Source: Flavobacterium aquiphilum (GTDB taxonomy: Bacteria > Bacteroidota > Bacteroidia > Flavobacteriales > Flavobacteriaceae). From it: a DNA stretch of 64,000 bases. The stretch is taken from positions 1,922,001-1,986,000 of the forward strand of contig NZ_CP114288.1 in assembly GCF_027111335.1 (NCBI RefSeq), given 5' to 3'. The translations under genes and the position numbers were made by a program. Each line of letters opens with the position of its first letter. Position 1 is the first letter of the stretch. The notes under the pieces were generated by a model that searched no databases, was not told the DNA's origin, and was given only the letters and a program-made list of their open reading frames with translations. This document shows positions 12,444 to 29,031 of this stretch, one piece after another.

Positions 12444-14027
12444 TTAATGCATCGCTTCGGATGGATCTATTTTGTTTTTTCCTTTTTTGATCGTAAGGAT
12501 GAAAGGAATGCAGAACAGGAACAGGATTCCGAGGTACAGAAAGATATCCATATAGGACAATACGGTGCTTTGGAGCATTACTTTCATTTCGAGTACTTTA
12601 TAGGCTTTGGACAAGGCTTCGTTGGCGGCATATCCTTTTGACATGAAGCCCATCTGTAACTGATGTACCATTTGTTGTACTTTGAGCGAACTTTGGTCAA
12701 GGTACTGAATCAAATTCACTCTATGTTCCTGATTAAGCCTAGAGATGTATGTCGTGATGATGGCAATACCAAATGAACCTCCCAACTGTCTCATCATTCC
12801 GGTAAAAGCGGCTCCTTCACCAATATGTTTTCCTTTTAAAGTGGATAGTGACAAAGTGGTAATTGGCACGAATAAAAATCCTAAACCAACTCCTCTAAGG
12901 ATTAACGGCCAAAACATGTGTTCTACTCCCGTATCCGGTGTCATTAGCCCGTGCATTAGGAAAGTAAAGATGAAAAACACTAGGAATCCTCCCGCTGCCA
13001 TATAGGTTTGGGGAACTCCACGCTGAATCATTTTCCCAATAAAAGGCATCATAATTCCGGTTGTTATCGAACTCGGAAGCAGTAACAACCCTGCATCGGT
13101 AGCTGTCCATCCCAATACTGACTGTGTGTAAATCGGAATAATAAAGGTGGAACCAAAGAGCCCGAATCCCATAATGAACGACATAATGGTTCCTACTCTA
13201 AGATTGTTGTCTTTCAATACTTTTAGGTTTACAATAGGGTGTTTATAAACGAGTTCTCTCCATATAAACAGCACCAGGCCAAAGACCGAAACTACGCTCA
13301 ATGCCACTATCATACCGTCATTGAACCAATCGTCTTGTTGTCCGTGTTCCAAAATAAATTGGAGTGAACCGATGAAAGTTGCCAAGAGGGCAATTCCCCA
13401 CCAATCGACTTGGTTTGCTTTTAGTTTGTCTCCGTATTTTGGGCTTTTTACATAACCAATAGTCAGCAAGGCGGCAATAATACCAATTGGAATGTTGATG
13501 TAAAAAATGAAAGGCCATGAGAAATTGTCAACGATATAACCTCCCAACGGCGGCCCCAATGTAGGCCCCACAATTACTCCCATTCCGTAAATGGCCTGTG
13601 CCATTCCTCTTTTGGCAACCGGATAACTTTCGGTGATGATGGTTTGGGCGGTTACCAGTAAGGCTCCTCCTCCCAGACCCTGTATGAATCGGAATGCGAC
13701 AAGTTCCCAAATATTGGTGGCATTACCACACAAAAAGGAAGATACCGTAAAAACAACAATCGAAGTTGCAAAGTAATTACGACGTCCAAATTGTTGCGAC
13801 AACCAGCTTGTCATTGGGATTACGATTACGTTTGCAATAGCATACGCGGTGATTACCCAAGCGACATCGGTTAGGGTAGCACCAAGACTACCTCTCATAT
13901 TATTTAGGGCTACGTTGACAATTGTGGTGTCCACAATTTCCAGTAAAGCACACATTATACAGGTTATCGTGATAATAACCCTGTTAATGCCGTATTCTAC
14001 TAAATCGTCTTCTTGGTTTTGTACCAT
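12444..14027 (-). CDS. emrB: DHA2-family (EmrB/QacA) multidrug efflux MFS permease
   Basis: A 527-residue inner-membrane permease with about 14 hydrophobic helices, typical of DHA2 drug/H+ antiporters. The loop after helix 2 has the MFS motif A-like LSQQFGRRNYF, and motif C appears as GVIVGPTLGPPLGGYI. It is the last gene of tetR-tolC-emrA-emrB, so it forms the inner-membrane part of a tripartite pump with the adaptor and outer-membrane channel encoded upstream. A 202-bp gap with palindromic arms separates it from emrA. Substrates cannot be predicted. Confidence 0.93.
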   Translation of the reverse strand: MVQNQEDDLVEYGINRVIITITCIMCALLEIVDTTIVNVALNNMRGSLGATLTDVAWVITAYAIANVIVIPMTSWLSQQFGRRNYFATSIVVFTVSSFLCGNATNIWELVAFRFIQGLGGGALLVTAQTIITESYPVAKRGMAQAIYGMGVIVGPTLGPPLGGYIVDNFSWPFIFYINIPIGIIAALLTIGYVKSPKYGDKLKANQVDWWGIALLATFIGSLQFILEHGQQDDWFNDGMIVALSVVSVFGLVLFIWRELVYKHPIVNLKVLKDNNLRVGTIMSFIMGFGLFGSTFIIPIYTQSVLGWTATDAGLLLLPSSITTGIMMPFIGKMIQRGVPQTYMAAGGFLVFFIFTFLMHGLMTPDTGVEHMFWPLILRGVGLGFLFVPITTLSLSTLKGKHIGEGAAFTGMMRQLGGSFGIAIITTYISRLNQEHRVNLIQYLDQSSLKVQQMVHQLQMGFMSKGYAANEALSKAYKVLEMKVMLQSTVLSYMDIFLYLGILFLFCIPFILTIKKGKNKIDPSEAMH

Positions 14028-14057
14028 TTTTTTCTGATTTATTCGCTGTATTCTTTT

Positions 14058-14201
14058 AACATATAAGTCATATAAGTTTTTAAAATTTTGTTCATCAGTG
14101 TTTAAAAGAGAGTATAAGTTGAAAACTTACTTTACTTAGATGAACTTTTAATTTTGCTTGATAACGTTTTAAATAAAAAGCTTATATGACTTATATGTTT
14201 A
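14058..14201. repeat. Inverted repeat with ACATATAAGTCATATAAG arms inside the efflux operon
   Basis: ACATATAAGTCATATAAG (about 14059-14076) and CTTATATGACTTATATGT (about 14182-14199) are exact reverse complements 105 bp apart. They fill the emrA-emrB gap. Confidence 0.7.
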
Positions 14202-14229
14202 AAATAATCTATTTGATAAAGCGGTTTTA

Positions 14230-15309
14230 TTACTTCAAATGAACATCCACGTCAGCGTTCATACCCGGACGAAGCAATTTTATTTTTTGAGGATCGTTTG
14301 AAGCGTTAAGGCTTATTTTTACCGGTAATCTTTGGATGGTTTTTACAAAGTTTCCAGTTGCGTTATCCGGAGGAAGTAATGAAAAACGGGATCCTGTAGC
14401 CGGTGAAAAAGAAGTAAGCGTTCCTTCAAAATCATAGTCAGGATATGCATCTACTCTTACCGTTACTTTTTGGCCAATAACCATTTTGTTCAATTGTGTT
14501 TCTTTAAAATTAGCCACAACCCAAGCTTCATTGTTATTGATGATGAAAAATAAAGATTGTCCTTGTTGTACCAGTTGTCCCGGTTGAATGTCAATTTTTG
14601 AAACTTGTCCGTCAATAGCAGCGGTTACCACAGTGTAAGTCAGGTTTAATTGAGCCACTTCAAGCAATGCTTTTGCTTTTTTGATATTGGCAGCCGCAAC
14701 TTCCGTTTGTTTATTGGTAACTCTTGATTTTGCTTCGATTACCGATTTTTGGTAAGCACTCGCTTTTTGTTGTTGTTGCAAAATACGTACTTGGCTTTCA
14801 GCTTCTTGTTTGGCGGCCAATGCTTGTTCGTATTGTTGTTTTGTGATCGAGTGATTTTTGTATAGGTTTTCGTAACGAACATAATCACTAGTTGCTCTGC
14901 CCAATCTGATTTTGGCAGTTTCAATATTTCCTCCAGCCGATTGAACGTTAGCATCCGAAACGGCAATGCTAGCCAATGCACTTCCAATATCTTCTTTGGC
15001 TACTTCATAACCACCTTCAGCACCGATTAAAGCTGCGTTTGCTTCTTCAATTTTTAATTGATAATCTCTTTTGTCAATGGTAAATAAAGTATCTCCCTTT
15101 TTTACATAATCATTATCCTTAACATATACTTTGCTGATATATCCCGAAACTCTTGGGATAATAGGATTCATGTTTTTCTCAATTTGGGCATCGTCTGTTT
15201 CTTCGTGTCCTTGAGAATGGATGTATTTTACGATTCCGTAAGTTCCTCCTGTTAGGATCAAAACCAATAGGATTATGATGAATTTTGTGTTTGTTTTTTT
15301 CTTTTCCAT
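14230..15309 (-). CDS. emrA: HlyD/EmrA-family periplasmic adaptor
   Basis: A 359-residue membrane-fusion protein. A single N-terminal membrane helix (about 9-27) precedes a biotinyl-lipoyl-like half-motif (GYISKVYVKDNDYVKKGDTL, read as one strand pair). A long Gln/Ala/Glu-rich coiled-coil hairpin (about 85-205) follows, then the second lipoyl half (GQVSKIDIQPGQLVQQGQ) and a beta-barrel. It links the emrB permease to the TolC-like channel. It is 14 bp downstream of tolC in the same operon, so co-expression is expected. Confidence 0.93.
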   Translation of the reverse strand: MEKKKTNTKFIIILLVLILTGGTYGIVKYIHSQGHEETDDAQIEKNMNPIIPRVSGYISKVYVKDNDYVKKGDTLFTIDKRDYQLKIEEANAALIGAEGGYEVAKEDIGSALASIAVSDANVQSAGGNIETAKIRLGRATSDYVRYENLYKNHSITKQQYEQALAAKQEAESQVRILQQQQKASAYQKSVIEAKSRVTNKQTEVAAANIKKAKALLEVAQLNLTYTVVTAAIDGQVSKIDIQPGQLVQQGQSLFFIINNNEAWVVANFKETQLNKMVIGQKVTVRVDAYPDYDFEGTLTSFSPATGSRFSLLPPDNATGNFVKTIQRLPVKISLNASNDPQKIKLLRPGMNADVDVHLK

Positions 15310-15323
15310 GATATTGGCGGTAG

Positions 15324-16643
15324 TTATATTTTTGAAAGGTTGAAGGTTTGTGATAATTGTCCTGTAGCCGAAAGTAATTCGTAATATCTTTGAATCACGT
15401 CAACTTTGGCAATGGTTTCGCTTATTTTTGATTTCAGTTGTTCTACATCGGCTTCAAGTAAATCATTGGTGTCCGAAAGACCGTTTTCGTATTTATCTTT
15501 TACGATTCGGTAATTTTCAGTTGCCTGATCAACAGCTTCTTTGTAAACAATGTTTTGTTTTATTGCCAAATCATAATTGGTAATTGACTGCTGTACTTGA
15601 ACTCTAATGTTGTCTTTTAAAAGTTCCTCAGTGTTTTTTACTTCAAGAGCTTTACTTTCTGCAATTTTTACTTGTGTACCATTTTTAAGGATTCCGCTGA
15701 TGTCGTAAGATACGCCTACACCAAAGAACATCGCATTTTCCAAAGTTACGATATTGTTCATGTTCAAAGCAGCATATCCACCCACCAAAGCTACGCTAGG
15801 GTAGTAGGCTCCTTTGGCAATTTTGACATTGTTTTGAGTTGCTTTTTCCTGAAATTGCAATGCCTCCAAATCTTTTCTGTTTTCAAAAGCGGGTTTCTCG
15901 TCTGATGGGACTTCATCTTTGTGAAGATTAATCAAATCACTTTCATTAACAACCAATTTAGTCTCTGTTGGTAATTTTAACAAAGTTACGAGATAGTAAT
16001 TGATTACTTTTTCATTGTTTAACGCTTCGTCAAGTGACAACTGAATTTTTGAAGCCTGAAGTTGCGCTTTCAATAAATCATTTCGAGGAATGATTCCGTT
16101 TTTTTCCAAAGCAATAAAATCCGTAACACGTTGATTGGCGCTTTTTTGGTTTTCCTTCAATAATTCGATGGTTCTTTGTACTTTATAAAGATTGGCATAG
16201 TAGTTTATCACTCTCATGGCCACATCTTCTTTAGTCTTGGATGCCATCGCATTTTCAGCCTGAAATAAATTATCCTGAAGTTTTATACCGTTTTGAATTT
16301 TCATTCCGGCAAATACAGGGATATTTAAACTGGCTTGGCCTATCATTATTCTATCCGGTACAGGAAAAGCTCCAGATCCAGCATTGATGTCTAATTTTAC
16401 TGTTGGTTCGGTTAATTGAAGCAATTGCCCGTTGATTTTCAGGTCCGGGTATTGCGTGTTCTTGGCCGATTGTAATTCCTGTTTCTTGGTTTCTACTTTG
16501 GTGTTGGCCAATGAGATTTCATTACTTTTTGTCCAAGCCAATTGTATCGCCTCTTCCAGCTTAATATTGGTCTTGTCTTGGGCATTGATTGATGAAACTC
16601 CAATGAAGAAACTTCCAAAGAGCATTAAATTTCTAACTTTCAT
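15324..16643 (-). CDS. tolC: TolC-family outer-membrane efflux channel
   Basis: A 439-residue outer-membrane factor with a type I signal peptide (cleavage near NAQ, residue 22). It has the duplicated alpha-helical, Gln/Lys/Glu-rich OEP repeats: EEAIQLAWTKSNEI begins the first, and RNDLLKAQLQASKIQL and NDLLEADVEQLKSKI mark the conserved helices. It completes the tripartite pump with emrA and emrB. Its 5' end overlaps the tetR 3' end by 11 bases, which suggests translational coupling to the regulator. Confidence 0.93.
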   Translation of the reverse strand: MKVRNLMLFGSFFIGVSSINAQDKTNIKLEEAIQLAWTKSNEISLANTKVETKKQELQSAKNTQYPDLKINGQLLQLTEPTVKLDINAGSGAFPVPDRIMIGQASLNIPVFAGMKIQNGIKLQDNLFQAENAMASKTKEDVAMRVINYYANLYKVQRTIELLKENQKSANQRVTDFIALEKNGIIPRNDLLKAQLQASKIQLSLDEALNNEKVINYYLVTLLKLPTETKLVVNESDLINLHKDEVPSDEKPAFENRKDLEALQFQEKATQNNVKIAKGAYYPSVALVGGYAALNMNNIVTLENAMFFGVGVSYDISGILKNGTQVKIAESKALEVKNTEELLKDNIRVQVQQSITNYDLAIKQNIVYKEAVDQATENYRIVKDKYENGLSDTNDLLEADVEQLKSKISETIAKVDVIQRYYELLSATGQLSQTFNLSKI

Positions 16644-17259
16644 ATGTCAAGAGGGCTTTAATGGTTTGTTGAATGTGCATTGTCAGTGTTGTTTTTATAT
16701 AAGTATTGAATTCTTCGTCTGTTTTCAAGTTCAGTATTTCCTCGAAATAAGGTTTGTTCATCTGGAAGTGAAAATAAGTGCCCAACATCGTTGGCATTAT
16801 CAACGGAATAATCACGTCTTTCCTGAAAATGCCCTTGATTTGACCTTCGTGGACAATGATTTCCAATGATTGTAAGTTGGCTTTCTTGATGTCGGAAAGT
16901 GACTGGATTTTCAAAGCCCTTTTCATGGAAGCCAATTCAAAATGGAGCACTCGGTAAATTCCCCTGTTGCAATTGAGTCGGTTTACATATAGCTCAATGA
17001 GCTTGTTTATTTTTTCTACAGGTTCTAGTTTTTCTTCAATCAAGTTAACCAGTTGTTCCTTGAGACCCGAAGTTTTGTACAAAATCAACGCCTCCAATAA
17101 TTTTTCCTTGCTTCCAAAATAATAAGAAACCATAGCGACGTTAATGTTTGCTTCCTTCGAAATATCCCGGATGGACGTACCCTCAAATCCTTTCTCGGCA
17201 AATAGCGTTTCGGCTACTTTTAGGATCTCAATTTGTTTGTCGTTTAAATCGGTTTTCAC
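16633..17259 (-). CDS. TetR-family repressor of the efflux operon
   Basis: A 208-residue TetR regulator. The N-terminal helix-turn-helix (about 10-55) contains the classic GFEGTSIRDISKEANIN segment and VSYYFGSKEKLLEAL. The C-terminal ligand domain is divergent, as is usual. It is the first gene of the operon and overlaps tolC. A near-perfect palindrome at 17287-17319, just upstream of its start, is a strong candidate operator for autoregulation. The inducer is unknown. Confidence 0.92.
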   Translation of the reverse strand: MKTDLNDKQIEILKVAETLFAEKGFEGTSIRDISKEANINVAMVSYYFGSKEKLLEALILYKTSGLKEQLVNLIEEKLEPVEKINKLIELYVNRLNCNRGIYRVLHFELASMKRALKIQSLSDIKKANLQSLEIIVHEGQIKGIFRKDVIIPLIMPTMLGTYFHFQMNKPYFEEILNLKTDEEFNTYIKTTLTMHIQQTIKALLTYES

Positions 17260-18163: not shown

Positions 18164-18658
18164 TTATGCCGGAATATTTTTTTCTTTAATCGGAATCCAG
18201 ATTTCTTCTTCGGAGTTGGGATCGTCTTTTTTATATTTTTCTCCCAATATTTCAAAATGCGGCCTGTTGTCCAAATCGTAATCTGAATTAGGAATCCAGG
18301 TTCTGAAGATGTAGTCAAAAATGGCGATGTCGTGTCCCTTAAGTTCGAAAACAGCGTAAAGTCCGCCTGATAAAGTAAAAGGCTCCATTTCGGAAGGAAT
18401 ATTAATGAAGTCTGAAACCTCAAGTGTTGCCCATTTCACGAAAATGGCTTTAGGATCGAAAGCTTTGAAATAGTTTGGTTCATATACCTGAACAGCAAAT
18501 AAATTTGAGCTTAACGGATTTTGAATTTCGGCACGTTTTGGCATAAAACTTTGCCATAACTGATGCGTTTTATTATCAGCAAGCGACATTTGAAGTTGCT
18601 TACCAATTAATTTTTTTTCATGTAAAATTTCAATTCTGGGTTCCGTTTGAAAGTTCAT
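18164..18658 (-). CDS. GyrI-like / AraC effector-binding-domain protein
   Basis: A 164-residue stand-alone small-molecule-binding domain of the GyrI-like superfamily, without a DNA-binding domain. The recognisable end is YAVFELKGHDIAIFDYIFRTWIP followed by the acidic LDNRPHFEILGEKY (read in parts), typical of AraE/GyrI-like domains. It starts one base after the stop codon of the GNAT gene, so the two are cotranscribed. A role in sequestering or sensing a cationic or drug-like molecule is suggested by the family only. Confidence 0.75.
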   Translation of the reverse strand: MNFQTEPRIEILHEKKLIGKQLQMSLADNKTHQLWQSFMPKRAEIQNPLSSNLFAVQVYEPNYFKAFDPKAIFVKWATLEVSDFINIPSEMEPFTLSGGLYAVFELKGHDIAIFDYIFRTWIPNSDYDLDNRPHFEILGEKYKKDDPNSEEEIWIPIKEKNIPA

Positions 18659-18659
18659 G

Positions 18660-19106
18660 TTATAGTGATTTTTTTAGGCAGACACTGGTTTCAACATTTT
18701 CATACGGTTCATAATTTGGGATTATCTGGTAACCTGATTTGTGGTACAAAGCAACGGCCTGGGGATTGTTTGTACCTGTTTCCAGAATGCAGTTGGTATA
18801 ATTGTTTTCGGTAGCCCAAATTTCCAATTCTTTCAAAACCCGACTTGCAATTCCTTTTCCCCGAAAATCTGGGTGAACAAACATTCTTTTTATTTCGACA
18901 GTGTCAGCATCAAATTCTTTGAAAGCCCCGCAGCCAATTGCAATAGTTTCCTCATAGCAAACCACAACATGATTTATTTTGGCCAATGTGTTGTGTTGGG
19001 CGTAAAAATCATGATCCTCTCCATCTTTAATTTTCAAATCTTGATCAAGCAAAACGACCAGTTTTTGGAAATCGATATTTTCAGAGGTTGTTCTTATGAT
19101 GGTCAT
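18660..19106 (-). CDS. GNAT-family N-acetyltransferase
   Basis: A 148-residue GNAT. The acetyl-CoA-binding motif is VHPDFRGKGIASRVLKELE, followed by the typical TNCILETGTNNPQAVALYHKSGY pattern (parts: NNPQAVALYHKSGY). These are strong matches to small-molecule or amino-acid acetyltransferases of the YpeA/PaiA type. It is followed immediately by the GyrI-like gene. The substrate is unknown. Confidence 0.88.
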   Translation of the reverse strand: MTIIRTTSENIDFQKLVVLLDQDLKIKDGEDHDFYAQHNTLAKINHVVVCYEETIAIGCGAFKEFDADTVEIKRMFVHPDFRGKGIASRVLKELEIWATENNYTNCILETGTNNPQAVALYHKSGYQIIPNYEPYENVETSVCLKKSL

Positions 19107-19191: not shown

Positions 19192-20202
19192 TTATTTAAC
19201 AGTGCATTTGAACTCTTTATTTGCAATGTTAATTTTCGTATCAGACTTAAAAACACTAATAATTTCTGCCATGATGGATAAAGCTATTTCTTCCGGTGTC
19301 TGGCTTCCGATAGGTAATCCAACAGGTCCATGAATTTTATCAAAAATAACATCATCAATAAATAAATCAGTATCAAGAATAGCATTTAGTAGTTTTTCTC
19401 TGCGATGAATTGGCCCAAGAAGACCAATATAGCGAACTTTTGAAGTAATCATTGTCAGTAAAAAACGCAGATCTTTTGAGAAATTATGGCTCATAACCAC
19501 AACCGCAGTGTTTTTACAAAAGAGATTTTGATCGAGATCTTCCGGTTTCATCGTTAAAACCGATTTTGCAAATGGAAAATCACTGTCATTTACCGAACTG
19601 TATTCGGAACCAATAATGACAACTTCCCACCCTAAGAATGACGCCATTTGACTTAATTTTTCTGCATCATGTTCTATTCCAAAAATACATAATCTGTTTA
19701 AAGGCTGTATTTCCTGCTTGAAAACCATATTGTCTGATTCTTTCTGATAATTGGAATGATAGATAGTGATGTCTTTGAATTCAAAAGAAGTTCCAAAATT
19801 GAGTTTGCTAATTTCGTCCGTTAAGAATGAGCAAGACAATGAAAAAGGCTGCCTTTTTTTAATAGCCTGCTCAATTAGTTGAATGAGTTCATTGTCAGGA
19901 TGGAACATTTCTATTAAAATATAAATGCTTCCTTCACAGCCCAATCGAAAACGGCCGTCGTATTTAAAAACTTTCGGGCAATTTGAAGAGAACACACTGA
20001 TGGATTGCCTTATAACTTCCTGTTCTACGCAGCCACCGCTTAATGCTCCGGTTATATTTTCATATTCATCAATCAGCATTTGTGTGCCTTCCTTTCGATA
20101 AGAAGAACCTTCTGTATGGACAATTGTTGCAAGAACTGTCCGGACATCCTTTTTACTTGCCTTTTTGTATGACTCTATTATTTTTAAAAACTCGTGGGTC
20201 AT
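19192..20202 (-). CDS. xdhC: XdhC/CoxI-family molybdoenzyme maturation factor
   Basis: A 336-residue protein with the XdhC_CoxI domain at the N-terminus (TIVHTEGSSYRKEGTQMLI, then GALSGGCVEQEV with the conserved Cys). A C-terminal Rossmann-like XdhC_C domain ends near the motif GLLGPIHRREKLL and GPVGLPIGSQTPEEIALSI. XdhC binds molybdenum cofactor, promotes its sulfuration and inserts it into xanthine dehydrogenase-type enzymes. It is the last gene of a co-directional block whose first gene is such an enzyme (24439-29031), though three unrelated-looking genes lie between them. Confidence 0.92.
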   Translation of the reverse strand: MTHEFLKIIESYKKASKKDVRTVLATIVHTEGSSYRKEGTQMLIDEYENITGALSGGCVEQEVIRQSISVFSSNCPKVFKYDGRFRLGCEGSIYILIEMFHPDNELIQLIEQAIKKRQPFSLSCSFLTDEISKLNFGTSFEFKDITIYHSNYQKESDNMVFKQEIQPLNRLCIFGIEHDAEKLSQMASFLGWEVVIIGSEYSSVNDSDFPFAKSVLTMKPEDLDQNLFCKNTAVVVMSHNFSKDLRFLLTMITSKVRYIGLLGPIHRREKLLNAILDTDLFIDDVIFDKIHGPVGLPIGSQTPEEIALSIMAEIISVFKSDTKINIANKEFKCTVK

Positions 20203-20233
20203 TTATTCTACGGTTTAAACTTTTCGGGAATGA

Positions 20234-21760
20234 TTAATTATTCCCGAAAAGATTTTTATAGTTTAATTGAATATATTCCAAAATTTCACTCGATGAAGGT
20301 TTTGGATTACCGGTCATATCTTCCAGAATATCTGCTATCAGGTTGTGCAGGTCGTTTACATGTAATTCACCTGCTTTCAAATTCCATTCTAATGGTTTTA
20401 CTGTCGGAATATCATCTTTACGGGCATTTTCTAATTGTAATAAACACGAAAAATCAGGGGCTGATTTGTCCCTTTCCGTAAGTGAGCCTTCAAGGTTAAA
20501 ACAATTTTGAACGGTTTTGATAATAGAGGAATGGTCAAATGGCGTATATCCATCAGGCCTTGCAATCAGTCCTTTTTTAATGAAAGGATTAATGACCACA
20601 CAGGGCACACGCACACCAAAGCGGTTGAAAAGAAATCCATCCTGACCAGCTCGTCCGTCTTCATAAGGATTTTTGGCTCCGGTTGGAGGAGGGACGTGAT
20701 CATAAGTACCGCCATGTTCATCATAAGTAATAATAAATAGTGTACTGTCAAAAAAAGGTGACGATTTTATCATATTGTAGATGTCGGCAATCAGTTTTTC
20801 ACCAGCCCGAATGTCAGTTGGCGGATGTTGGTCATTTTGCCCTTCTCCGCCATAGTTAGGCTCTAAGAAAGAGTAACTCGGCAGGTTCCCCTCTTTACAT
20901 TTTGCTTCAAAATCTGATAATGTTCCAAAATTATTATTGTATTTAGAATCATGTAATTGCGTCATGATAAGCCGGGTGAGCGAAAAATGATTGTTTCCAA
21001 ACTTGCCGTCTTCATCTTTAGCACTAGCAAAATCATTGTTGCCAAAAATTCCCCAACTAAGGTCTTTTCTTCCTCCATCGATAGCATCCTGCATTTGGTT
21101 AAAGATAGTTTTTGCATCGCATTGAGCAACCGGATTATTATTGACATGCCCAGTTGAAGTGGCTGCGTGTACAAAATCGCGATTAGGAATCGTCTGGCTG
21201 GGAACAGAACAATGATAATGATCACAGACAGCAAAACTTTTTGCGAGCTCGCTTAATACGGGAGTTTGTTCTGGAGTATAGCATTTCATAATGCTGCGAG
21301 GGTTTGTTGGATCATCCCCAAAGCTGAACGCCCCGTAAAGCATGGCATTTTGATAATTCTGAACAAATCCCATATTAATAGCAGGAGGTGCATATTGCTG
21401 AGCTACATTATATTTTAAATACAATTGATGATTGGTGTCTTTAAAACCTTCTCCCGGATCAGGGTTTGGAAGAGTAAAATCTACAGGATTTGGAACAAGT
21501 TCTCCTCTGCGTTTTTTGGGTTGACCGTTTTTCTCAACCATTACTTTTTCAATGAAAGGAATACCATCTGAATCTATATTATTAAGCGGATTCCATAAAT
21601 CTTTGGTTAATCCTTCATATTGCTGGTTGTGTGGCGGTTTTTCACCGTCATATAACCAACCCAAAAGATTGTCAAAAGACCGATTTTCCATCATCAAGAC
21701 TACAATATGCTTGATGGTATCTTGTAATTTTCCCGTATTGGGTTTTAGATATTGGTTCAT
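20234..21760 (-). CDS. Phosphoesterase (phospholipase C / acid phosphatase AcpA superfamily)
   Basis: A 508-residue enzyme of the PF04185 phosphoesterase family. Near the start is the metal-binding motif VLMMENRSFDNLLGW. The nucleophile region is CSVPSQTIPNRDF (about 190-205), and TYDEHGGTYDHVPPP (about 345-360) supplies further metal ligands. Members cleave phosphodiesters or phosphomonoesters, for example phosphatidylcholine in PLCs and nucleotides in AcpA. Unlike most, it has no Tat or Sec signal peptide. It starts 35 bp after the DNase II homologue and precedes xdhC by 31 bp. The substrate is not determined. Confidence 0.88.
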   Translation of the reverse strand: MNQYLKPNTGKLQDTIKHIVVLMMENRSFDNLLGWLYDGEKPPHNQQYEGLTKDLWNPLNNIDSDGIPFIEKVMVEKNGQPKKRRGELVPNPVDFTLPNPDPGEGFKDTNHQLYLKYNVAQQYAPPAINMGFVQNYQNAMLYGAFSFGDDPTNPRSIMKCYTPEQTPVLSELAKSFAVCDHYHCSVPSQTIPNRDFVHAATSTGHVNNNPVAQCDAKTIFNQMQDAIDGGRKDLSWGIFGNNDFASAKDEDGKFGNNHFSLTRLIMTQLHDSKYNNNFGTLSDFEAKCKEGNLPSYSFLEPNYGGEGQNDQHPPTDIRAGEKLIADIYNMIKSSPFFDSTLFIITYDEHGGTYDHVPPPTGAKNPYEDGRAGQDGFLFNRFGVRVPCVVINPFIKKGLIARPDGYTPFDHSSIIKTVQNCFNLEGSLTERDKSAPDFSCLLQLENARKDDIPTVKPLEWNLKAGELHVNDLHNLIADILEDMTGNPKPSSSEILEYIQLNYKNLFGNN

Positions 21761-21795
21761 CTTGGTTAAGTTTTTTGGCAGAAATTAGACGCTGT

Positions 21796-22848
21796 TTAAT
21801 GTGTAGCTTTAATTAAATTTTGGGCATCAACCCTGGAATGTCCCGGAGGTGCTATGATAAGGTCTGTTTTAGATAAAGCCGCCCATAATGTATTGTCCTG
21901 AAAAGCAATAGTACCTCCACCACGTTTTTCCTGCGAAATCATGCGATTGATATCACCAACACAAACCCAGTCAGAGTCCACACTAACAGCCCATTTGGCA
22001 TGATCGTGTGTTTCCGGCCAATTCCATGGCACTCCAAGCGGACTCAGGTCAATGTATTTAACATCGAAAGTTTTATGAATACCGTCACTGTCCAATGTTG
22101 GAGGGATTTTGCCCCGAATCCAGGTTTCTACATCAATGTCTGTTCTAAGTGCAGGACCAACTAAATCATTCCAGAAATCTTTATTCCATTTTTGATTCTT
22201 TGCAATAACTTTAAAGTCAAATCCTCCTCGGGATTTATAAGCCAACACATCTGAATCCCCTGTGGGATTTGGGTTTAGGGGTTGACTGAGAATATAAAGA
22301 GGATCATTTTTATCTAATGATTCTGGAATTTGTGGTAAGTATACTTGCGGAACCTGGTGATTTGCCATTTGAGCAGCAATTTTTCCAGCCGTTTCAATAT
22401 CTATAGAAATACAAAGGAAAGTCTGGCCGTATTCAGGTGTCGGCATTGATGTTTCTTTTGCGTCAGCATATTTTGGCCAAGAATGAAGTAACCATAATGC
22501 TGTTTTTGTTTCAGTATCAAAAGCCAAAACACCTTTAGTATGTCCAAATGTACTACTGTCTGTTCTATTGGCATCGGCAGGCATTTCATCATTGTAAAGA
22601 ATCCACCCGGTAGTTGGTGTTGGCGGTGTGTCAAAGATGGCTTTTAGTGTAAGGTCAAGCGCTCCTTTTCCGTCAGTCAGTAAATTAGGTGATTGGACAA
22701 CTTTTTTTATGTTTGGGTCATAATAAACGTATTCATAGCCGGTGGCTGTAGGTTCGTTTGCGGTTTTTCCAAGTTTTGGAACTTTGTATGCAAACCACCA
22801 ATCAACTTGTTGACCGTTTTCATCTAATGCAGAAATTGTATTAGCCAT
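21796..22848 (-). CDS. Deoxyribonuclease II homologue
   Basis: A 350-residue protein strongly matching the DNase II family. The start NGQQVDWWFAYKVPK parallels the animal enzyme's N-terminus. GHTKGVLAFD (H103-x-K105) and DHAKWAV (H283-x-K285) are the paired HxK active-site motifs of this PLD-fold pseudodimer. YGQTFLCIS, WVCVGDINRM and KRGGGTI are also conserved. DNase II cuts DNA without metal at acidic pH to leave 3'-phosphates. Family members are common in animals but uncommon in bacteria. No signal peptide is visible, so where it meets DNA is unclear. It sits between the haem lipoprotein and phosphoesterase genes, after a hairpin (22891-22926) that may partly insulate it. Confidence 0.88.
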   Translation of the reverse strand: MANTISALDENGQQVDWWFAYKVPKLGKTANEPTATGYEYVYYDPNIKKVVQSPNLLTDGKGALDLTLKAIFDTPPTPTTGWILYNDEMPADANRTDSSTFGHTKGVLAFDTETKTALWLLHSWPKYADAKETSMPTPEYGQTFLCISIDIETAGKIAAQMANHQVPQVYLPQIPESLDKNDPLYILSQPLNPNPTGDSDVLAYKSRGGFDFKVIAKNQKWNKDFWNDLVGPALRTDIDVETWIRGKIPPTLDSDGIHKTFDVKYIDLSPLGVPWNWPETHDHAKWAVSVDSDWVCVGDINRMISQEKRGGGTIAFQDNTLWAALSKTDLIIAPPGHSRVDAQNLIKATH

Positions 22849-22879
22849 TTTATATTTTTTTAAGTTTTCTTAATAGTAT

Positions 22880-22926
22880 CAAGTATAGTTATACCGATTC
22901 AAATCTTTGATGACTTGAATCGGTAT
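22880..22926 (-). promoter_or_regulatory. Hairpin and weak -7 element between lipoprotein and DNase II genes
   Basis: ATACCGATTCAA (22891-22902) and TTGAATCGGTAT (22915-22926) form a 12-bp perfect stem without a U-tract. Minus-strand TATACTTG (22880-22887) matches TAnnTTTG with one mismatch. The gap may therefore contain a processing or partial termination site and a secondary promoter. Confidence 0.45.
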
Positions 22927-22958
22927 TCTTATTATGAATTAATAATCCCTCTTGCAAA

Positions 22959-24392
22959 TTATTTATTAGGAGCTACATCTCCACGTCGGATAGGTACTTG
23001 TACAGCTTTGTACTGGGAAGCAAAACTTCCTTTCTCTGCAGCTTCTTTAGCAGTGAAAAAGTTTTCTAAAGCAATGGCCACCTGAAAAGAAAAATCTGTT
23101 GAATATACAGTTTGATTCATTGAGGTACCACAGTTTATATTTTGAAACCATTTCATCCATTCATGACCGCCGCCGCCTACTGGAGGAGCTTGTCCACCAT
23201 CAGGCGCTGCATTAGGCGGAACAAGTGAAGTAACTGCGGGATATTGAGCCGCATTATGACATGACATACAAGAAACGGTATTTAAATCGGCAGGACCGTC
23301 TAATCGTCCGTTCCATCCAAGATGCTGAGGCGGAAGATTTGGACTTTCGAAAATTACAGTTTCTTTTAGGTCTTTGTTAACCTCAGTTTTAATTGGCGGA
23401 TATGGAGATGTTTTATTTATTCTGTTTTTAGGATCATTCCCCCAGGTAAGTCCAACAGGCACAAGATTCATCAATTTATTTTTCTTATTCAGTTTTCCGT
23501 TGTAGCAAAAAGTTCCAAATACCCAGCCGGTTCCTTCAGGATTGCTTGGGCTTCTGTCTGCCCTTGGATCACGAACGGAGATATCCATTTGTAAAAGATG
23601 CACATCAGAAACGACTCTTTTGCTTGATTTCCAGAAATTTTCAGTGATGTAAGCTTTCCATGTCAATGGATTTACAAGATAATCTACAAAATCGGTTCCT
23701 TTTGGAGCATCGGTAAATAATAATTTTACGAAGACGGTTCCAGTTGGGAATCCACCATTATTATAACGTTTATCCAATACTTTAAGATTAGGGTGTTGAG
23801 GATCTTTCCACATTTGCCCCATTGCATAACCTGCTTTATCATTGATCAAAGTAATGGCATATACAGAATAATCACCGTCAACTCCTTTAAGTCCAGGACC
23901 TAATTGGAGAGGTCCTAGTGGAGCTTCTTTAATAAGACCGTGAAAACCTTCAGTTCCTCCATTTGGCGGATAGGCATTTGGTCCTTCAACACTTGGATGT
24001 AGCCATGGGATATGATACCAGTTGCGAACTTTATTTTCATAAGGATCCCAGTCTTCTGTATTTCCTTCAAAACCATAATCGCGAACGGCTTCAATATATT
24101 TTAAAGGTTCTTTTTTGAAATCTATTTCGAGAAATTTCGGCATGTCTTCAGGCATTTCCGTTGGGAAATCTGTTTTTAAACGAAATATAGGCTGGTCAGA
24201 ATATTTTTCTCTGTATTCCTGAGGGCTTACCATGTAACCAAAATCAGGGAATCCATTTTCTTCATAGTTTTGTTTTTCTAAAGCAGCAAGTGCAGCCGTG
24301 CTTTTTTCAATAATTGGCGCCTCATCCTTTTTTCCGTTGCAGGAGGCAATAAGGACGGAAGTTGCAATAATTAATGGTCTTAAGTTTTTCAT
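22959..24392 (-). CDS. Monohaem c-type cytochrome-like lipoprotein
   Basis: A 477-residue lipoprotein with a type II signal (LIASC at the processing site). A single haem c motif, CMSCH, lies near the C-terminus (375-379). The large N-terminal part (about 40-360) is Pro/Gly/Asn-rich and not otherwise recognised. It lies 46 bp downstream of the xanthine-dehydrogenase-like gene, so the simplest reading is that it is an envelope-anchored electron acceptor or partner. However, the enzyme has no export signal, so direct contact is uncertain. The distal haem ligand could not be assigned. Confidence 0.75.
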   Translation of the reverse strand: MKNLRPLIIATSVLIASCNGKKDEAPIIEKSTAALAALEKQNYEENGFPDFGYMVSPQEYREKYSDQPIFRLKTDFPTEMPEDMPKFLEIDFKKEPLKYIEAVRDYGFEGNTEDWDPYENKVRNWYHIPWLHPSVEGPNAYPPNGGTEGFHGLIKEAPLGPLQLGPGLKGVDGDYSVYAITLINDKAGYAMGQMWKDPQHPNLKVLDKRYNNGGFPTGTVFVKLLFTDAPKGTDFVDYLVNPLTWKAYITENFWKSSKRVVSDVHLLQMDISVRDPRADRSPSNPEGTGWVFGTFCYNGKLNKKNKLMNLVPVGLTWGNDPKNRINKTSPYPPIKTEVNKDLKETVIFESPNLPPQHLGWNGRLDGPADLNTVSCMSCHNAAQYPAVTSLVPPNAAPDGGQAPPVGGGGHEWMKWFQNINCGTSMNQTVYSTDFSFQVAIALENFFTAKEAAEKGSFASQYKAVQVPIRRGDVAPNK

Positions 24393-24438
24393 TTGTTAAA
24401 AAGATTAGTAATGATTGTTTTTATTTGTCTATAATATT

Positions 24439-27400
24439 TTATTGTCCAAGATGTTTTTCGGTTACTTCACAGGCTCTGCGAACTTCCTGTACTGTTGCCG
24501 GTGCATCGAAACGGAAGAGTGGGTCTAGGTTTCGTTCAATCCTTGAAGCACGAATCGCGGCTTTGATTGCGAAGAATACACTATTAGCCAATACCAGAGG
24601 AGGTTCACCAACCTCTTTTGCTGAAAATATTTGGTTGGAGTCTTCCGGAATACTTTGTACCGATTCTTCATCTCTAGGAAAAAGAAAAGTGTTCATTTCC
24701 AGCGGTATGGTAGTGATTGCTGGAATTTTATAACGCCAGGTATTTGTCGAGTTTAATCGACCTTTATTGGCTCCTTCGGTTTCTGAGACTAATTTTTCGG
24801 TTAACAGGTATCCGATCCCCTGAACAAAAGCACCCTCTACTTGTCCTATGTCGATGGCTGGATTCATACTCCATCCCATGTCATAGATGATGTCGGAACT
24901 AATGATTTTGACTTCTCCCGTAAGGATATCCACTTCTGTGACAGAACAAGCCACCGAATAGGTAAATCCAACAAACGAATCAACGCCACCACCAAGTTTG
25001 GCATCTTTAACGCGTTCTATACCAGGAATGTTAGGTTGGTCTTTTTCGGTTTTGAATGTCATGGCCGGAATTTGAACCTCACCACCTTTTATTTTGGTGT
25101 TAAAAGAAGCAATAAGATTAACCCTTTGCGATGCCGCTTGGCTGATTAGATTTTGCCAAATCATTGTTTCTTTTCCGTCACCGCTTTTAATTTTTTTAGC
25201 CCAGCCTTTGTCTTCTCCGGCACCATAATTCCAAAAGTCTATGTTTTTCTTTTTACACCAGTCCTCACCGTTTTCTTTCAACAATTGATAGCCAAATTCC
25301 ATAAGTCTGGCTCGCATTTCTTCGCAGGTTTGTTTTACCGCTTCACAAGAATAGGGAGTTCCAGTAGATCCTCCAGTACTTGTTGGATTTGGAATAACAC
25401 TTGTGTTTACATTGTCAATGAATATCATTTCCATCGGTATTCCCAGGACATAGGCCGCGACTTGTTGTGCTTGTGTAACCAAACCTTGTCCAATTTCGAC
25501 ACCACCCTGATGAATGACAACGGTTCCGTCGCCGGGATTGATGACCACTATGGCAGCAGATTGTTCCAATGCAAGTAAATTATATCCTGAGCCGTATTTT
25601 ACGGGTATCATAGAAATTCCTCTTTTATGCCATTTGTTTTTCTTGTTGAATTTTTCCACTTCCAGATATTTGGCTTCGAAATTCGAAACTCTCTTGGCAT
25701 AAGCCCAAACTTGTTTCATGTAGCAATAAGTAAGTGCCTGTCCAAATGGTGTGACATCACCACGGTCGTAAAGGTTTTTTTCGCGTAAATCTTCCGGTCT
25801 CATGTTCAATGATACAGCGGCATCATCAATTGCGTTTTCAACAATATTTTTACCTTGTACGTCACCAAACGCACGCATTGCAGTACTTGGAGCCGTATTG
25901 GTGCGACACACGTCGATTTGACTCTCAAAATTTTTGATTTTGTAGGCATTGTCCGTTCTCAACTGAATACAATTGGAAACGATAAACGAGCAGTCGTAGA
26001 AAGCACCGCCGTCTCCCCACATTTTTAGTTGGAATCCGTGAATAATTCCTTTGTTTTCGTTTTTATGTTCACCGGTGTCAACAGCAATTTGGTATTCACC
26101 ATAGTAAGCATGACGTTTTCCGATCATTGCGGTATCCTCATCTCGGGGAACTGCAAGACGAACAGGTCTTTTTGTCGCTTTTGCAGCCACGGCTGTTGGT
26201 CCGGCAATAAAACGAGTTTGTTCCGTTTTACCTCCAAATCCACCACCCACTGGCGGTACTTCGACTTCAATTTGGTGATGGTACATTGCCAATGCCGAAG
26301 CAACGGTATCATGCATTCCTCCGGGACTTTGTACGGATGGCTGTACTTTCATGCGATGCTCATCCATTGGCGTTACGATACAGGCCTGTGGTTCCATGTA
26401 GAAATGGGCTTGACCACCGCAAAGCTGTGAGGAACTAACGACGGTGCAAGGCACGCTGTCAACAGTAACTTTTTTTGTATCTATTTTTTGTTCGCGTAAA
26501 AGCGTTTTAGGAACCGTCGTGTCATCATTTGTGGCCCATTCAAATTGACTTCCAGGACGGGTTATTTTCCAAATATGGGAAGCGAAAGAAGCAGAAACCG
26601 GTGCGTCGGGGAAAATACTTCCTTTTTTGATGGCCTCAAGTAAATCTATGATTGGCTCGCTCCATTGCTCTGTCCATGGCGCTCCAGGTTTCGAATATTG
26701 CACACATTCCGTGGACACAAAGGCAGCAATTTTAATAGCGTCCTGCTCACTTGGAGCAAGTACCATCGCAATGGATTGTCCTACATAACTAACCAATTGT
26801 TCCGCAAATAACGGTTGGTCACTTCCCATTCCCTGATAGTTACGCCCCCCGTTTTTAATATTTTCTGCGGTAATAATATCAGTAAAAGTTGGGAATTTCT
26901 CTTTTAGAAATGTTTTTAGTTCCTCAATCGAAGCTATTTTTTTATTGTTTGGATTTATAAACGAGTAATTCATCAACGCTCTCTGACTTTGTACGAATGC
27001 ACCGTTTAGAGTTAGTGGCGGTACAGCGAGTTCATGAGTGTAATTGGTTTGTCCGGAAGTTTGGTACATAGCCGTAACCTTGATGTAGGGTTGCGCTACC
27101 GGAGCTTTATAATCTTGTGTTTTGTAAGTTTGTATTCCGTCACTTACCGGCCAATTACCCCATTTGGTTTCAGCTGTGGAAATCAGGTTTTCCGGTATAG
27201 AAGCTCCTTTTACGGCCAAAGCATTTACAATTGCCTTGTAGAAAAAAGAAACGGCTAGTTGGGTGCGGTATTCCGAGGTGAAGTCTTCGTTTGGAACTTC
27301 TTCCATTCTTTTTTTCTGCGCATCCAGTTCTTTGGAGACTTCTTTTGCCAATATCTTTGAAAGATTTTCGGCATCCCCCAAGGTCAGTTTTTTATTTTTC

Positions 27401-29031
27401 ATGGCCTCTTCAGTTTCCGTAGCTCTCCAAGGATACGGTGCAATCCCTCCAAATACGATCATTGCCGAATTGACAATCAAATTATCATTAATGCTGAAAT
27501 TGGTAGTGGCGTTGACAATACTATGAGCATTCACTTCGCGAAGTGCCACTTTTTGCGCCAGTGCCACATCATTTGAACTTTTCAAAGGAATTACATAGGA
27601 AGTAAGGACAATTTCATCTGCGAGTTTAGGATCTTTTATGATAGCTTCAACTAGCGCTTCGGCAGTTTTTGTGTGTTCCTTGAAAATACCGTTTTTGTCC
27701 AATAATAAGTAATTAATTTTTGTTTCCACCGCAAATAGGGCAGTAAAAAGATCGGACGGAAAAGGTTCTCCGGTATGCATCGGAATATGTTTTAGCACCA
27801 GCATGGTGTTTCCGCCGATAGAAGCAGCATTACGGACAATTCGGCCAGCGGTTCGGCGTGCCATATAGTCCAATGCCTCCAATATCGAAATGTCAGATAT
27901 TGATGTTTTTTTGTTTATGTGTTTGAGCTTATCGATACCTTGAGAGAGGATCTCGATAAGTTCACTGTATGTTGTGCTGGCAGCTATTTGAAGATAATCG
28001 TCCGTTAATTTGTGTTCGGTATTCAAATCGGGAATGAATCGAATGTCAACGTAAAAAGTCGTGTCTAAATACTCGTTTTTGTAGATTCCATAAGAAGTGT
28101 TGGCATGTACGAGTCTTATATTCTTGTTGTTTTTAAATATTTCGGCCAATTCCGATAGCGATTTTGGAGCTACCCAACGGTTTGTGGTAACACCGGAAGC
28201 AGGCTGTTGAGCATCTCTAGGAAAGGGAATTTCGACATTGGAAGGAAGTTGGGCTTTGGTAACCGGATCTAGTTTACAGGGCATTCTGTTTTTTTCGTCG
28301 GTGGCAGACCAATCAGAGGCAAAAGTTTTCATTCCGGTAAGAATGGAGCGGTAACCGGTGCAACGGCATAAGTTTCCGTCGAACGCTTCCTCAATTTCTT
28401 TTTTGGTTGCATTTGGTTTATTGTGTATGAACTCAGACATATTCATTACAAATCCAACGCTGCAATATCCGCACTGACTACCATTGTTTAAAGCCAATTG
28501 GTATGCAACAGGATTCATTCCTAAGTGTGATTCCTCAGAAGGATATTCTGAGATTTCCTCAATAATTTTTAATTCTGCTGTACAAATGACGCTTTGCATA
28601 TTTTCGGCTATTTTTTCCTGTACCGCAAGTCGTTTGTCTTCTGCTTCTTTTTTTGCCGCCTCCAATACAGGAGAAATATCCTCATCGAGGGGAACGTTGC
28701 TGCGTGTAGAACTGGATTTTTGTATAAGGTGTTCAGGATCTGGTTTACGAACACCTCCTGTTCCTTCAATTGTTGTGACTGAAAGTCCGCCTATGGAGCA
28801 TACCGGTCTAAGACAGGAATTGATAGCAAGATGTTCAGCCTCTTTTTTTGTGTCGTTCCATTCCGAAAGGATTACGGTACAACCACCACAACCACCCTGA
28901 CCGCATGGCTTTTTAGGGCCTGAGAGTGCCACTTTTGGAGATTTTAAATAATCGATTAAAAGTAAATCAGGTGAGGGATTTTCTATGGTAGTGGCTTTTC
29001 CGTTCAAAAAGAAATTTACAGAATTTTTCAT
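24439..29031 (-). CDS. Xanthine dehydrogenase-like molybdo-flavo-iron-sulfur enzyme, single chain
   Basis: A 1530-residue fused enzyme in the order [2Fe-2S] - [2Fe-2S] - FAD - molybdopterin, as in animal xanthine dehydrogenase; most bacteria split these over two or three subunits. C43, C48, C51 and C73 bind one cluster; C187, C190, C222 and C224 bind the other. The FAD loop is NAASIGGN (401-408). The Mo domain (about 660-1530) has VGGGFGGK, the substrate Arg in AMRAFG and the catalytic Glu at about 1476 (EVGEPP). A 74-residue insertion lies between the clusters compared with the bovine enzyme. It is probably a cytoplasmic purine or aldehyde hydroxylase. It heads a block ending in xdhC. The substrate is not proven. 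Confidence 0.9.
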   Translation of the reverse strand: MKNSVNFFLNGKATTIENPSPDLLLIDYLKSPKVALSGPKKPCGQGGCGGCTVILSEWNDTKKEAEHLAINSCLRPVCSIGGLSVTTIEGTGGVRKPDPEHLIQKSSSTRSNVPLDEDISPVLEAAKKEAEDKRLAVQEKIAENMQSVICTAELKIIEEISEYPSEESHLGMNPVAYQLALNNGSQCGYCSVGFVMNMSEFIHNKPNATKKEIEEAFDGNLCRCTGYRSILTGMKTFASDWSATDEKNRMPCKLDPVTKAQLPSNVEIPFPRDAQQPASGVTTNRWVAPKSLSELAEIFKNNKNIRLVHANTSYGIYKNEYLDTTFYVDIRFIPDLNTEHKLTDDYLQIAASTTYSELIEILSQGIDKLKHINKKTSISDISILEALDYMARRTAGRIVRNAASIGGNTMLVLKHIPMHTGEPFPSDLFTALFAVETKINYLLLDKNGIFKEHTKTAEALVEAIIKDPKLADEIVLTSYVIPLKSSNDVALAQKVALREVNAHSIVNATTNFSINDNLIVNSAMIVFGGIAPYPWRATETEEAMKNKKLTLGDAENLSKILAKEVSKELDAQKKRMEEVPNEDFTSEYRTQLAVSFFYKAIVNALAVKGASIPENLISTAETKWGNWPVSDGIQTYKTQDYKAPVAQPYIKVTAMYQTSGQTNYTHELAVPPLTLNGAFVQSQRALMNYSFINPNNKKIASIEELKTFLKEKFPTFTDIITAENIKNGGRNYQGMGSDQPLFAEQLVSYVGQSIAMVLAPSEQDAIKIAAFVSTECVQYSKPGAPWTEQWSEPIIDLLEAIKKGSIFPDAPVSASFASHIWKITRPGSQFEWATNDDTTVPKTLLREQKIDTKKVTVDSVPCTVVSSSQLCGGQAHFYMEPQACIVTPMDEHRMKVQPSVQSPGGMHDTVASALAMYHHQIEVEVPPVGGGFGGKTEQTRFIAGPTAVAAKATKRPVRLAVPRDEDTAMIGKRHAYYGEYQIAVDTGEHKNENKGIIHGFQLKMWGDGGAFYDCSFIVSNCIQLRTDNAYKIKNFESQIDVCRTNTAPSTAMRAFGDVQGKNIVENAIDDAAVSLNMRPEDLREKNLYDRGDVTPFGQALTYCYMKQVWAYAKRVSNFEAKYLEVEKFNKKNKWHKRGISMIPVKYGSGYNLLALEQSAAIVVINPGDGTVVIHQGGVEIGQGLVTQAQQVAAYVLGIPMEMIFIDNVNTSVIPNPTSTGGSTGTPYSCEAVKQTCEEMRARLMEFGYQLLKENGEDWCKKKNIDFWNYGAGEDKGWAKKIKSGDGKETMIWQNLISQAASQRVNLIASFNTKIKGGEVQIPAMTFKTEKDQPNIPGIERVKDAKLGGGVDSFVGFTYSVACSVTEVDILTGEVKIISSDIIYDMGWSMNPAIDIGQVEGAFVQGIGYLLTEKLVSETEGANKGRLNSTNTWRYKIPAITTIPLEMNTFLFPRDEESVQSIPEDSNQIFSAKEVGEPPLVLANSVFFAIKAAIRASRIERNLDPLFRFDAPATVQEVRRACEVTEKHLGQ

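Follow-up and report, generated by a model that had tools for sequence, protein, structure and literature searches.

A modular Flavobacterium gene cluster carrying a molybdo-hydroxylase, probably not a purine enzyme, and a P460-like haem lipoprotein

What does a block of genes do that joins a molybdo-hydroxylase, a haem protein and two hydrolases? Such a block lies in the 64,000-nt stretch of Flavobacterium aquiphilum analysed here (NZ_CP114288.1, 1,922,001-1,986,000; hereafter the window). It encodes a single-chain protein resembling xanthine dehydrogenase (XDH), a haem lipoprotein (haemLP), a DNase II homologue, a PF04185 phosphoesterase related to phospholipase C (PLC) and a maturation factor (XdhC). 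A sequence-only reading had proposed a pathway that starts with DNA cleavage by DNase II, continues with dephosphorylation of the nucleotides by the phosphoesterase and ends with oxidation of the purine bases by XDH, matured by XdhC. We give about even chances to a different reading, in which the block belongs to a single conserved, modular cluster of two neighbouring units, made of a non-purine molybdo-hydroxylase and a P460-type envelope partner, often with DNase II and PLC. Three new findings are the most informative: the altered substrate pocket with a control from within the genus, a P460-like protein paired with XDH throughout a close clade, and the linkage to DNase II. We found no paper describing this cluster in the open-licence literature, as judged by titles and the opening of abstracts.

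The substrate pocket of XDH and its haem partner

XDH has the 2Fe-2S, 2Fe-2S, FAD and molybdenum cofactor (Moco) domains expected of a purine xanthine dehydrogenase. The Pfam matches were Fer2 (barely reaching its cut-off), Fer2_2, FAD_binding_5, CO_deh_flav_C, Ald_Xan_dh_C, MoCoBD_1 and MoCoBD_2; an insertion of ~70 aa lies between the two 2Fe-2S domains, and the FAD domain and two Moco domains follow. With xanthine dehydrogenase/oxidase (single-chain in mammals, split in XdhAB) it shares the domain order, the cofactor domains, its best whole-protein match in the PDB, the catalytic Glu, one of the two stacking Phe residues and an XdhC nearby.

The pocket residues were taken from an alignment to bovine xanthine oxidase, with numbering by way of the offset of the full-length chain. 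We observed that the bovine pair Glu802 and Arg880 is replaced by T936 and C1021, and the second stacking Phe (F1009) by Y1150, whereas F914 and the catalytic E1261 correspond to F1055 and E1476. Among the best 120 of 2213 XDH homologues, the Thr, Phe, Tyr and catalytic Glu were each found in 120 and the Cys in 117 (Ser in 3); since these are the best-scoring homologues, the counts apply to the close clade. As a control, the split XDHs from two further genomes of the genus Flavobacterium (L098, L099) read E, R, F, F, E at these positions, and an XDH on a Methylobacterium plasmid reads T, C, M, Y, E. Glu802 and Arg880 are described as hydrogen-bonding the purine, with lower activity upon mutation (PMC3624778; PMC4334109).

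The genomic context of the two kinds of XDH also differs. OHCU decarboxylase, which acts in urate breakdown, was present in 11/11 genomes with a split XDH and in 0/10 genomes with the block-type XDH. Uricase was found in 0/21 of these genomes, and its absence from all of them does not discriminate between the two kinds. The replaced pocket residues and the missing OHCU decarboxylase make purine oxidation by XDH improbable. Several members of the clade carry the label 'xanthine dehydrogenase', which the Thr/Cys signature and the adjoining P460-type partner suggest is probably wrong; the signature poses a testable substrate question.

When the FAD domain was searched alone, the PDB matches were aldehyde oxidases (AOX) only (2/2), and the loop equivalent to the NAD-binding loop reads as in AOX. 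In xanthine dehydrogenase this loop takes part in NAD binding, and the aldehyde-oxidase-like FAD domain suggests that the acceptor is probably not NAD+. AOX, too, is not known to keep the Glu/Arg pair, and a mutant study reportedly switched xanthine dehydrogenase to a specificity of the aldehyde oxidase type. XDH differs from AOX in falling well below the NCBIfam cut-off (TIGR02969, 525.1 against 1912.3 bits) and in belonging to a bacterial cluster with a haem lipoprotein. It was also below the cut-offs of the NCBIfam XDH equivalogs (xdhB, 432.8 against 849.5 bits; xdhA, 234.6 against 467 bits), models that describe split subunits. We propose that XDH is a cytoplasmic molybdo-hydroxylase, in which electrons would pass from Mo through two 2Fe-2S clusters and FAD to the acceptor, and that its substrate is probably an aldehyde or another N-heteroaromatic compound rather than xanthine or hypoxanthine.

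The haemLP has a single CxxCH motif, and its N-terminus carries a hydrophobic segment that closes with Ser-Cys and, read by eye, appears to be a lipobox. One copy of CxxCH was present in 120/120 haemLP homologues (the best 120 of 517). The best fold matches, which were moderate, were to the cytochrome P460/c'-beta superfamily, and Pfam gave a sub-threshold match to Cytochrome_P460 (20.3 bits against a cut-off of 27); comparison of the haemLP profile with PDB sequences gave 0 matches. The protein shares one CxxCH with this superfamily, but differs from it in being a lipoprotein, in its length (477 aa against about 160 aa in family chains) and in its low sequence similarity. An invariant Lys, K223, is at most a candidate for the Lys-haem cross-link of cytochrome P460 proper. 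The domain assignments made earlier for XDH, DNase II, the PF04185 phosphoesterase and XdhC are borne out by Pfam; for haemLP there is only the sub-threshold P460 match. The lipid-anchored haemLP may have an envelope function in the XDH route, with a small reactive compound as its target.

Conservation, modularity and linkage of the cluster

A protein scan of genome contigs for DNase II gave 29 loci. In seven of these (L005-L011) we observed XDH, haemLP, DNase II and PLC in identical order, and the Flavobacterium loci among them (L005-L009) carry XdhC in addition. Counting the window and L048 (G502), the whole five-gene block is present in 7 distinct Flavobacterium genomes; four genomes that, by equal contig size, occur under two labels (L006=L055, L007=L049, L008=L050, L009=L052) were counted once, and L047 and L053 are near-identical. 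In an uncultured Flavobacteriaceae genome (L010, which has a second, diverged haemLP) and a Saprospiraceae metagenome-assembled genome (MAG; L011), the four-gene order stands between different flanks, and XdhC was not found within the stretch examined. A Chitinophagaceae locus (L015) has DNase II-PLC and none of the other block genes, and a Methylobacter locus (L014) has DNase II and, separated from it by one gene, a distant PLC. The remaining 20/29 loci have DNase II alone of the five, some of them on short contigs.

DNase II is rare in the phylum (4/395 Bacteroidota genomes, with diverged copies in two), and haemLP was found in 5/395, G084 being marginal. For the genus, 150 Flavobacterium genomes were scanned, with at most 3 XDH and at most 10 haemLP candidates scored per genome. 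A full haemLP was present in eight, and a ninth match (G426) was distant. An XDH of 78-100% identity occurred in exactly these eight genomes; any XDH match was seen in 42/150, of which 34 had weaker matches only. Within stretches of ~20 kb, five of the eight haemLP carriers (which include the window, G000) have DNase II-PLC and six have XdhC. Another genome (G206), outside the 150-genome set, has XDH-haemLP without DNase II-PLC, which brings the Flavobacterium genomes with this arrangement to four. The cluster is thus modular, with XDH and haemLP as its core.

In the XDH tree the copies lacking DNase II form one group, in which L008, a DNase II carrier, is nested. As DNase II is present in the outgroups L010 and L011, two losses are the simplest account, and one loss plus one regain is the alternative. 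The haemLP tree has little resolution and does not require two changes. In a genome of the same class (G194; L004/L057), the match to a diverged DNase II is interrupted by one TAG stop.

Linkage beyond Bacteroidota was estimated from the best 120 homologues each of haemLP (of 517), XDH (of 2213) and DNase II (of 1086). Two proteins on contigs of equal size were taken as a proxy for one contig, which is not proof, and the controls were obtained by shifting one list by 1-20 bp in either direction. The haemLP and XDH lists had 19 exactly equal contig sizes (19/45 haemLP contigs of at least 9 kb; controls 0-2), and the DNase II and XDH lists had 13 (13/59 contigs of at least 9 kb; controls 0-1). 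One pair of the latter kind, P0167 and P0276 at 22316 bp, has both proteins named Verrucomicrobiota. Between DNase II and haemLP the signal was weak (5 equal sizes; controls 0-3). The association of a molybdo-hydroxylase with a haem protein of P460-like type, in many cases joined by DNase II, is thus seen in more than one phylum. The earlier suggestion that the genes belong together is therefore upheld by the four-gene order common to two Bacteroidota families and, by equal contig size, by the DNase II-XDH linkage in Verrucomicrobiota; the co-occurrence search it had called for (DNase II, PF04185 and single-chain XDH) shows that the neighbourhood recurs well beyond chance.

On the Methylobacterium plasmid a haemLP homologue (27%) adjoins an XDH of 41%. 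Other plasmids and six Pseudomonadota genomes carry more distant haemLP homologues (about 25-42%), and tblastn found no such XDH near them. The pairing thus characterises the close clade and the Methylobacterium case, and does not extend to the haem family as a whole. The phylum of the Methylobacter MAG had haemLP in 7/299 genomes; tblastn did not find an XDH of this kind in the flanks of six of these loci (L081-L086), and the seventh match is G1161 (E 8e-4). There was 1/199, a distant match, in the phylum of the Acidobacteriales MAG, and 4/119 in the order of the Saprospiraceae MAG, with the close kind only in the MAG itself (G541). The 0/140 in the phylum of the Polyangiaceae MAG came from a search without a positive control and carries no weight.

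A second haem protein family, HP2, recurs beside haemLP homologues and has a C-terminal CxxCH in the copies read (L066:12767-14287, L025:12026-13372, L085:8000-9418, L086 and L082). In L025 it sits two genes after DNase II, and in L085 (8000-11849) a nucleoside hydrolase (PF01156), the haemLP homologue and HP2 are directly adjacent on one strand. Three HP2 proteins tested had no Pfam match. HP2 of L025 and L066 was considered as a haemLP homologue and rejected, since profile comparison gave short stretches only. On two rhizobial plasmids, several TIR-domain genes (L062) and a caspase-family gene with a nuclease (L063) lie near haemLP homologues.

The DNase II homologue matched Pfam DNase_II at 4.7e-79 (266.4 bits against a cut-off of 23) and the PDB entries 5i3e/5unb nearly over its full length (521 bits). 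Both HxK motifs were present in 28/29 DNase II loci, the exception (L033) being a partial match. PLC matched Pfam Phosphoesterase at 5.5e-71 (240 bits against 23), and among NPC4/PF04185 phosphoesterases its nearest solved relative is the non-specific phospholipase C4 (NPC4, 8hav), a plant enzyme. It scored below both NCBIfam models matched, including that of the phosphocholine-specific enzyme (TIGR03396, 113.2 against 580.25 bits), and differs from its relatives in adjoining DNase II. A hydropathy check of the window proteins showed no visible signal peptide on either DNase II or PLC; lysosomal animal DNase II carries one. The neighbourhood of DNase II includes GMC-like, ferritin-like and BBE proteins in L015 (2486-12972), and a tyrosinase, a GTPase, a metallophosphoesterase and a ferritin-like protein in L067 (4788-17035). 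A flavin-oxidase theme around DNase II was nevertheless rejected, as most of the 29 loci had no further common gene family (Pfam on 20 selected neighbours). A role in anti-phage defence was also set aside, as none of the five block proteins matched a PADLOC model.

Transcription units and competing explanations

The sequence-only reading had noted a 12-bp hairpin before the DNase gene and suspected two units. The hairpin is real and longer (a 15-bp stem in the fold). A strong hairpin follows the haemLP gene in 11/11 Flavobacterium copies examined, both those carrying DNase II and those lacking it. In the seven copies with DNase II the stem is near-identical (12 pairs checked; three changes to G-U and one mismatch). 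The copies without DNase II (L046, L047/L053 and L051) keep the hairpin with differing stem sequences. L011 has a long hairpin after haemLP, and L010 no clear one. A conserved structure with a changing stem sequence fits an RNA 3' end, and the presence of the hairpin whether or not DNase II follows suggests two transcription units, in agreement with the earlier suspicion. A Bacteroidota-type promoter pattern had its sole match upstream of the L007 XDH.

In the two-unit reading, unit 1 (XDH and haemLP) would be the core of the cluster, and unit 2 (DNase II, PLC and XdhC) would be expressed separately. XdhC may sulphurate Moco and thereby serve unit 1, and DNase II with PLC would be a frequent but dispensable addition. 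Three points weigh against this reading. The whole XDH and its Moco domains are closer to solved xanthine dehydrogenases than to aldehyde oxidases in the PDB; the hairpin after haemLP has no U-tract and was not called by a terminator scan; and the nucleoside hydrolase beside the distant haemLP homologue in L085 favours a purine pathway.

It is possible, though somewhat doubtful, that XDH-haemLP and DNase II-PLC are independent units without a common pathway, made neighbours by joint horizontal transfer. Each pair does occur without the other: DNase II-PLC in L015 and, with the intervening gene, in L014, and XDH-haemLP in the four Flavobacterium genomes; 22/29 DNase II loci, some of them short, have neither XDH nor haemLP, and the hairpin separates the two pairs. 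However, Flavobacterium, the uncultured Flavobacteriaceae and the Saprospiraceae genome have the four genes in one order despite different flanks, and the Verrucomicrobiota-named XDH and DNase II lie on equal-sized contigs.

We consider it unlikely that the block is an oxidative-lytic cassette of a cross-phylum system, in which an O2-reducing molybdo-oxidase of the clade with the Thr/Cys/Tyr pocket, an envelope P460-type protein, an acid DNase and a phospholipase would digest or kill cells, or act on debris, in self-lysis, killing or scavenging. The aldehyde-oxidase-like FAD domain and the oxidase-type neighbours of DNase II (BBE, GMC-like and ferritin-like in L015, tyrosinase in L067) are in its favour. 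Against it stand the hydrolases DNase II and PLC, neither of which shows a secretion signal, the absence of PADLOC matches and of any recognised immunity or delivery gene within the block, and the finding that most DNase II loci have no other gene family in common (Pfam on the 20 selected neighbours).

The DNA-to-purine pathway is very unlikely, since the conserved DNase II-PLC-XDH linkage (DNase II-XDH also by equal contig size), the intact-looking key motifs of XDH and DNase II, the solved relatives of XDH and the L085 nucleoside hydrolase are outweighed by the replaced Glu/Arg pair, which the split XDHs keep, the missing OHCU decarboxylase in the 10 carriers searched, hydrolases without a visible export signal, a phospholipase as the nearest PLC structure, four core carriers lacking DNase II and PLC, and a set of five block genes that includes no nucleotidase, nucleoside hydrolase or phosphorylase.

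Layout of the block and neighbouring genes

The five genes are co-directional at the positions first given for them (Table 1), with the 31-110 bp spacing claimed; in gene order from XDH to XdhC the gaps are 46, 110, 35 and 31 bp. All five genes are intact and under strong constraint (dN 0.026-0.118 against dS 0.65-1.77, compared with L005 and L009).

Table 1. Features of the block, with positions in the window
Feature	Position	Strand	Basis and remarks
XDH, single-chain molybdo-flavoenzyme, 1530 aa	29031-24439	minus	Open reading frame (ORF) and Pfam
haemLP, mono-haem lipoprotein, 477 aa, CMSCH, predicted export	24392-22959	minus	ORF, motif; P460/c'-beta-like
Hairpin, 15-bp stem, 3' of haemLP gene	22891..22926	minus	Fold; probable 3' end of unit 1
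DNase II homologue (PF03265), HxK motifs HTK and HAK	22848-21796	minus	ORF and Pfam
PF04185 phosphoesterase (PLC)	21760-20234	minus	ORF and Pfam; non-specific phospholipase C4 closest among solved structures
XdhC/CoxI-type Moco maturation factor, optional member	20202-19192	minus	ORF and Pfam

XdhC scored above the Pfam cut-offs of PF02625 (XdhC_CoxI; 65.9 against 24.3 bits) and PF13478 (XdhC_C; 108.1 against 29.7 bits), and below the NCBIfam cut-offs of TIGR02964 (72 against 161.6) and of the aldehyde-oxidoreductase maturation factor NF045664 (148.8 against 350). A terminator-like hairpin on the plus strand, opposite to the gene direction, lies at the PLC-XdhC junction (20220-20251).

Downstream of XdhC (18164-19106) is a pair encoding a GyrI-like/Cass2 protein and a GNAT acetyltransferase. 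The pair adjoins the block in L009 too, and L005 and L006 keep the GNAT gene alone nearby. Further along (12444-17259), genes for a TetR regulator, a TolC-like outer-membrane protein, a HlyD-type adaptor and an MFS transporter are consecutive; with TetR assigned by Pfam and the remainder read from the sequence, this row is probably a multidrug efflux operon.

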